From contig JADHNI010000004.1 of the NCBI GenBank assembly GCA_016779585.1, positions 1 through 64,000 on the forward strand: DNA of 64,000 nucleotides, given 5' to 3'. This document shows positions 16,045 to 18,528 of this stretch, piece by piece. Under the pieces are notes generated by a model. That model saw only the letters and a list, made by a program, of their open reading frames with translations, did not search any database and had not been told where the DNA came from. Source of the stretch: Pseudomonadales bacterium. Lineage in GTDB: Bacteria > Pseudomonadota > Gammaproteobacteria > Pseudomonadales > Azotimanducaceae. Every line of letters starts with the position of its first letter. Within the stretch, counting starts at the first letter, position 1. A program made the position numbers and the translations under genes.

Positions 16045-17085
<1,041 letters not shown>

Positions 17086-17142
17086 TCTTTAGCCCGTTAT
17101 CAGACCGGACTCGCCCTATCGATTTGGTGTTTAACTTCTGAC

Positions 17143-17159
17143 GAGGAGGTAACCAAATC
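17143..17159 (+). promoter_or_regulatory. Ribosome binding site that points to an ATC start for mreC
   Basis: GAGGAGGT (17143-17150) is a perfect Shine-Dalgarno. Six bases later comes ATC (17157), in frame with mreC. No ATG, GTG or TTG lies between the upstream in-frame stop (17139) and the ATG at 17199, which has no ribosome binding site. Confidence 0.65.
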
Positions 17160-18038
17160 AAATCCCTGTTCCTGGAAGAAACCACCATTGGCTACCAGAT
17201 GGCTGGGCTTGCCGTGCTCTCTGTCATTCTGATGTTTGTTGATCATGTGACTGACTGGCTCGATGAATCTCGAGCTGCCATGACGGTTGCCGTGACTCCG
17301 GTTGTTGTCATCGCCGATCTTCCAAACCGAAGTGCACGTGGTCTGACGGAGATGCTGGCTTCCCGCGAAGACCTGCGCCGCCGGATTACCGAGCTGGAAA
17401 GTGAGCTGACCCTGTTCAAGGTCAAGACGGAAAAGATGGCCGCTCTGACAGCTGAGAATAATCGTTTGCGTGATCTTCTGGGATCAGCGGCGAAACTTCA
17501 GGACAACGTACTGGTTGCGGAGTTGATTGGTGTGAACCCGGACCCTGAAGTTCAGGAAGTTGTGATTGACAAGGGTGTCCTGGATGACGTTTTCATTGGG
17601 CAGCCAGTCCTGGATTCCCGTGGTCTCATGGGGCAGGTAGTTGACGTCAGTCGGTATACCAGCAGGGTCCTCCTGATCAGTGACCAGGAACATTCAGTAC
17701 CCGTACAGGTGCTCAGGAGTAACCTTCGCCTGATCGCCCAGGGTACCGGTCTTGACCAGAAACTCGAGCTGCAGCATGTGAACTCCACGGCGGATATTCG
17801 TGTTGGTGATCAGCTTTTGTCTTCGGGATTGGGTAACCGATTCCCTGTTGGCTATCCCGTGGGCGTCGTCGACCGGGTCAAACATGAGCCTGGGAAACCC
17901 TTTGCTGTAGTTACTGCGTCGCCGAGTGCCCAGCTGGATCGTTCCCGTCACGTGCTTTTGGTGTTTACGGAAAGCAGAACACCGGAAGAAGCTACAGCAT
18001 TCACTTCTGGCAGGTCGGATGGAAAGAGTGGCAGATAA
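17157..18038 (+). CDS. mreC: Rod-shape protein MreC, apparent ATC start
   Basis: A bitopic inner-membrane protein that activates the RodA-PBP2 elongation complex through its periplasmic beta domains. From the ATC it has 293 residues: a short cytoplasmic tail beginning xKSLFLEETTIGYQ, a membrane segment (MAGLAVLSVILMFVDH), a coiled coil about residues 65-105 (REDLRRRITELESEL...LTAENNRLRDLLG), then the MreC beta domains (VLDSRGLMGQV, QGTGLDQKLELQHV, GLGNRFPVGYPVG). The xKSLF tail matches the MKxLF-like start of the family, which supports initiation at 17157 rather than ATG 17199. mreD overlaps its last 20 bases. Confidence 0.93.
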   Translation: MKSLFLEETTIGYQMAGLAVLSVILMFVDHVTDWLDESRAAMTVAVTPVVVIADLPNRSARGLTEMLASREDLRRRITELESELTLFKVKTEKMAALTAENNRLRDLLGSAAKLQDNVLVAELIGVNPDPEVQEVVIDKGVLDDVFIGQPVLDSRGLMGQVVDVSRYTSRVLLISDQEHSVPVQVLRSNLRLIAQGTGLDQKLELQHVNSTADIRVGDQLLSSGLGNRFPVGYPVGVVDRVKHEPGKPFAVVTASPSAQLDRSRHVLLVFTESRTPEEATAFTSGRSDGKSGR

Positions 18039-18528
18039 TCCTTTGGCTGGTATGACTGTGATAGTCGTGACAGTGATTGCAGGCATGGTGCTTGCGGTCT
18101 TACCCATGCCTGATTTTGTTCCTCCCGAGCTGGGGTTCCTCAGGCCGGACTGGGTCGCGATGGTGCTTGTGTACTGGCTTATCGCGTTGCCACACCGGGT
18201 CGGTATTCTCAGCGCCTGGGCAACCGGTCTCATCGTCGATGTCTTGCTTGGCAGTCTCCTCGGGCAGCATGCCCTGGCGTACGTGATAATCGCTTATATC
18301 GCCTTAAATCTTTACCAGCGGCTCCGGATGTTCACGGTCTGGCAGCAGGCGTTGGTGCTGTTTGCGCTGCTTGGTCTGAACCAGTTGATCAACTTCTGGA
18401 TTGAAAATATCGCCGGAGACGCTGAGTGGCGCATGTGGTATCTCATGCCGGCGCTCGCAGGTGCATTTCTCTGGCCCTGGGTATTCCTTCTCTTGCGTGT
18501 GCTCAGAAGAAGGCTGGCTGTGACATGA
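18019..18528 (+). CDS. mreD: Rod-shape protein MreD
   Basis: 169 residues with about five membrane segments, of the usual MreD size. It works with MreC in the elongasome. Recognisable parts are FVPPELGFLRPDWVAMVLVYWLIALPHR and GLIVDVLLGSLLGQHALAY, the central MreD signature. The chosen ATG has CAGGTCGG just upstream and lies inside the end of mreC; an upstream open stretch is only the shadow of mreC. Its TGA overlaps the maf ATG. Confidence 0.95.
   Translation: MERVADNPLAGMTVIVVTVIAGMVLAVLPMPDFVPPELGFLRPDWVAMVLVYWLIALPHRVGILSAWATGLIVDVLLGSLLGQHALAYVIIAYIALNLYQRLRMFTVWQQALVLFALLGLNQLINFWIENIAGDAEWRMWYLMPALAGAFLWPWVFLLLRVLRRRLAVT

Follow-up and report, generated by a model that had tools for sequence, protein, structure and literature searches.

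mreC of Pseudomonadaceae and many other Gammaproteobacteria appears to start at a conserved AUU, AUC or AUA codon behind a strong Shine-Dalgarno sequence

To our knowledge, the textbook cases of natural AUU, AUC or AUA (AUH) start codons in bacteria are very few, namely infC and pcnB. Of these, infC is the classic IF3-controlled AUU gene. That IF3 represses initiation at such codons has been reported for the AUU of infC, where it forms a feedback, and for the GTC start of sigR of Streptomyces (PMC5472188). PMC9410913 describes pcnB as the second AUU gene of E. coli and, citing Binns and Masters (2002), states that its translation is limited by the AUU start.

Here, we have analysed the start region of mreC in a window of 64,000 nucleotides from a Pseudomonadales bacterium (contig JADHNI010000004.1, positions 1 to 64,000), and argue that mreC very probably initiates with fMet at an AUH codon, at a low rate that would be discriminated by IF3. 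The gene would thereby join the very short list of conserved weak-start genes, as an unusually widespread member and as a morphogenesis gene. Like infC, mreC has its AUH codon behind a Shine-Dalgarno (SD) sequence and keeps it over a wide taxonomic range, and both genes are present in the window's genome. The infC of this genome (locus L281, ggagactgatccATTAAA) reads GGAGACTGATCC ATT AAA at its start, so that the comparison with infC made in an earlier, sequence-only reading of this DNA fits a gene of the same layout in the same organism. In other genomes with a readable start, infC has ATT or ATC in most cases; in the window's genome and several relatives (L281, L270-L288), this codon stands a few codons after an upstream stop. 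Unlike infC, mreC does not encode IF3, which leaves no feedback loop, and its start codon turns to AUG in several orders. With pcnB of E. coli it would share a weak start codon that limits the synthesis of a protein other than IF3, but the feature of mreC is conserved across orders and lies in a cell-shape operon. The sigR gene is similar in having a non-canonical start, operon products needed in unequal amounts and a start that is mis-annotated in databases; it differs in using GTC rather than ATH, in belonging to another phylum, and in that the effect of IF3 is experimental for sigR and inferred for mreC. We found no earlier report of a non-canonical mreC start in the open-access papers searched, subscription journals being outside our scope; none of these papers paired mreC with AUU, and mreC, start codon and IF3 occurred together only in one unrelated paper.

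The window carries the gene order mreB-mreC-mreD (Table 1), with PF06723 and PF04093 matches flanking mreC. A whole-genome search finds mreC in a single copy, and the product read from ATC belongs to the MreC family (PF04085, 137.5 bits; cut-off 28). Direct reading confirms what had been proposed for this region from the letters alone: a strong SD is followed, after a spacer of 6 nt, by an in-frame ATC, and the frame offers no usual start before ATG 17199. An in-frame TGA bounds the frame upstream. Between the TGA and the ATC there are only five codons (CGA GGA GGT AAC CAA), none of them a start, and the ATC is followed by AAA TCC CTG TTC CTG GAA GAA ACC ACC ATT GGC TAC CAG and then by the first ATG, GTG or TTG of the frame.

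Table 1. Features of the mre locus and the mreC start region (positions in the window)
Feature	Position	Strand	Description
mreB	16045..17085	+	ORF with ATG start; PF06723, 482.7 bits; upstream gene of the operon
Possible hairpin	17121..17159	+	GATTTGGT (17121-17128) may pair with ACCAAATC (17152-17159)
In-frame TGA	17139..17141	+	Stop ahead of mreC in its frame; no canonical start from there to 17199
Shine-Dalgarno GAGGAGGT	17143..17150	+	Anti-SD duplex energy -13.1 kcal/mol
Putative ATC start codon of mreC	17157..17159	+	ATH kept in relatives; coding-type divergence from here
mreC	17157..18038	+	293 codons from ATC plus stop; PF04085
ATG, codon 15	17199..17201	+	First canonical codon, at membrane helix edge; no SD, unconserved; rejected as start
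mreD	18019..18528	+	Overlaps the end of mreC; PF04093, 98.7 bits; start ATG 18019 is our choice

The sequence-only reading had suggested looking for an ATG in the start region of relatives. The opposite is seen. The 29 relatives collected first range from members of the genus to members of the order, and all of them carry ATC, ATT or ATA at the codon that aligns with ATC 17157, each time with an SD ahead of it (for two loci, L015 and L022, the offset of the match was taken into account). That the codon is truly an ATG, altered by an assembly or sequencing error, might be supposed from the single metagenome-type assembly of 130 contigs. The relatives refute this supposition, as ATT, ATC and ATA occur in independent genomes, named Pseudomonas isolates included, and we regard its chance as negligible.

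The divergence among 13 relatives places the boundary of the coding sequence at the ATC. In codons 2-15, differences at codon positions 1, 2 and 3 number 319, 90 and 529, and 340 codon changes are synonymous versus 366 that are not; the preceding 30 bases, taken in this frame, give a flat distribution (471, 555 and 472), with 33 synonymous changes versus 658 others. The pairs behind these counts are not independent, but the two stretches differ clearly. As the pattern is that of codons from codon 2 onwards and flat before, coding would begin at ATC 17157. An alternative is that the isleucine codon is internal and that translation enters from upstream by a frameshift or stop readthrough. Apart from the missing canonical start nothing favours such an entry, and both the flat, non-coding divergence before codon 1 and the in-frame stops that most relatives carry close upstream, at differing places, speak against it; we give it practically no weight.

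It may also be argued that the start of MreC lies farther downstream, at ATG 17199 or at an equivalent GTG or ATG within the membrane helix. This would be the choice of gene predictors and is implied by the published numbering of P. aeruginosa MreC. We consider it very improbable, and reject it on the conservation in relatives and the coding-type divergence of codons 2-15. The position of ATG 17199 is ATG in only 7 of the 29 loci and CTG, CTC, ACC, TTT or another codon elsewhere, and it has no SD. A start at the P. aeruginosa position would cut the helix to about 13 residues and leave no cytoplasmic tail. ATG-bearing homologues, moreover, begin at the same place as the window's ATC (E. coli MKPIFSRGPS). 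The earlier view that ATG 17199 is an unlikely start is upheld on these grounds, and the conserved N-terminal peptide would be lost with it. The CTG codons 4 and 6 were rejected as starts, being unconserved and too distant from the SD. The mreC of the window is thus left with no usable ATG, GTG or TTG, with coding that begins at an AUH codon and with an SD at normal spacing before it. Although no proteomic, ribosome-profiling or reporter data support the case, the comparison of sequences makes a start at the ATC, as first proposed from the window alone, near certain.

The surveys beyond the first 29 relatives comprised 60 genes (order and class); 40 gammaproteobacterial and 20 other proteobacterial loci; and, for named genomes, 118 stretches retrieved with a degenerate pattern. 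Two Prevotella/Alistipes matches and one from Elusimicrobia were left out as chance pattern matches. The aligned codon is ATT, ATC or ATA in 138 of 240 gammaproteobacterial mreC genes, and across all 240 it is ATT, ATC, ATA, ATG, GTG or TTG only (in two rows, the ATG lies one or two codons off). None of the 240 has CTN or GTH, which would be expected of an internal hydrophobic codon, and this restriction to the initiator set counts for initiation there. In the named set, every mreC of Pseudomonas, Halopseudomonas and Atopomonas has ATT, ATC or ATA, that of P. syringae and P. fluorescens reading GGGAGGAGCGGCTT ATT AAA CCG at its start, and the genes of Escherichia, Citrobacter, Erwinia, Vibrio, Photobacterium and Aeromonas have ATG. 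Canonical starts are also found in loci of Alphaproteobacteria and in Burkholderiales-like and Xanthomonadales-like loci, all three being inferred group names. AUH is kept against AUG, but not in Enterobacterales and Vibrionales.

That AUG is avoided, and not merely infrequent, came from 298 Pseudomonadaceae genomes (the family, which holds Pseudomonas, was inferred from matching named sequences). The start motif is present with ATH in 204 of the 298 and with ATG, GTG or TTG in none. The remaining genomes have drifted away from the strict motif; 28 of them were read and 27 could be placed by script, all 27 with ATC or ATT and an SD. The third base of the start codon varies among T, C and A, and codon 3 (CCN) ends in G in 72 of 85 of the same ATH genes. 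Since free third positions are mostly G, the missing G at the start codon is not an effect of base composition. Comparison across these genomes thus shows avoidance of AUG at the putative mreC start in the family, and what had been noticed as an oddity of one locus appears to be a lineage-wide feature, far broader than first thought.

The comparison further shows a link between the AUH codon and a strong SD. The mean anti-SD duplex energy is -8.0 kcal/mol in 138 ATH genes versus -3.6 kcal/mol in 102 NTG genes, and -5 kcal/mol is reached by 96% of the former versus 30% of the latter; the SD of the window is the strongest of the ATH genes measured (-13.1 kcal/mol). A tree of the N-terminal protein (FastTree), which is built on short sequences and has rough group borders, implies no fewer than 19 switches of start class; of 19 non-overlapping pairs, 18 show the stronger SD in the ATH gene (sign test, p 8e-5). 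Spacing is mostly 5-8 nt. In the NTG groups (Enterobacterales, Vibrio and others) the SD is usually weak; four ATG-starting genes (L117, L118, L129 and L044) with a strong SD are exceptions. This pattern fits either a low rate that is selected and reached by two routes, or a weak codon that simply needs a strong SD, and the link may reflect no more than this minimum need, without regulation. An AUH start is not, on these alignments, required by every gammaproteobacterium, since Enterobacterales, Vibrionales and others do without it, and a strong SD also occurs in about 30% of NTG genes.

How the codon would act is suggested by the known cases. The near-perfect SD would hold the 30S subunit at AUC 17157, where the initiator tRNA could pair with A and U and be mismatched at the third base; as the codon would be read in this way, fMet rather than Ile is expected as first residue. 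Because IF3 represses such codons in infC and sigR, mreC is expected to be discriminated by IF3 as well. Initiation would then be slow despite good ribosome binding, keeping MreC low relative to MreB and making its synthesis dependent on IF3 activity, as with infC. These steps, and the purpose of the start, are inferred: a low initiation rate is likely, and control by IF3 is plausible by analogy. Neither IF3 control nor the lowering of MreC relative to MreB rests on expression data. It is conceivable that the AUH codon merely fixes a low level of MreC, in stoichiometry with MreB and MreD, and that IF3 never varies enough to matter. The ATG lineages, which seem to arrive at a weak start through a poor SD, would agree with the rate rather than IF3 as the selected trait. 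However, the same low rate would be reached by an AUG behind a weaker SD, and yet AUG is avoided without exception in Pseudomonadaceae; infC, moreover, has the same layout. We regard such fixed tuning as a real contender, though with somewhat less than an even chance.

A local RNA structure might also be involved. The possible hairpin of the window (-14.4 kcal/mol, z -3.05) has an inner stem that pairs part of the SD and, if it forms as predicted, would hide both the SD and the start codon. It is 95.8% paired over six sequences and nearly invariant among close relatives, including the CTTCTGA between its arms. No two-sided changes are seen over the six sequences, and the hairpin was found only in the window's close relatives and not in other lineages. 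The start-region folds of Pseudomonas differ and do not beat shuffles, and a wide 136-nt fold is unremarkable. We have rejected a conserved hairpin as a general mechanism; lacking two-sided changes and absent elsewhere, it can be no more than an extra layer in the window's genus.

The start site also bears on the annotation of P. aeruginosa MreC. A structural study used constructs 36-330 and 97-258 and described the first 14 residues as comprising cytoplasmic residues and the membrane region (PMC8137920). In the ATC-based numbering of a P. aeruginosa-group gene, residue 113 aligns with the third residue of the 6zm0 chain, which we infer from its length (164 residues, two of tag plus 162) to be the 97-258 construct. 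By this alignment, residue 1 of the published numbering falls on codon 17, a GTG in the membrane helix (L289, P. aeruginosa group), and annotated P. aeruginosa MreC seems to lack 16 N-terminal residues, which form the cytoplasmic tail and the beginning of the helix. The published structure 6zlv is also concerned by this numbering. If the annotated MreC is missing its cytoplasmic tail and half of its membrane helix, in P. aeruginosa at least, then constructs, fusions and models of the elongasome are affected.

That hundreds of species retain AUH, and that AUG was met in no member of Pseudomonadaceae, would mean that the weak, IF3-sensitive start is itself selected. We put forward, only tentatively and as a possibility well short of an even chance, that most non-enterobacterial gammaproteobacteria couple the amount of MreC, and thus their elongation machinery, to the condition of the translation apparatus through discrimination of the conserved AUH codon by IF3. 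A connection between IF3 and cell elongation is directly testable by a one-base change and, if true, the coupling would be a direct link from ribosome or IF3 status to cell shape.
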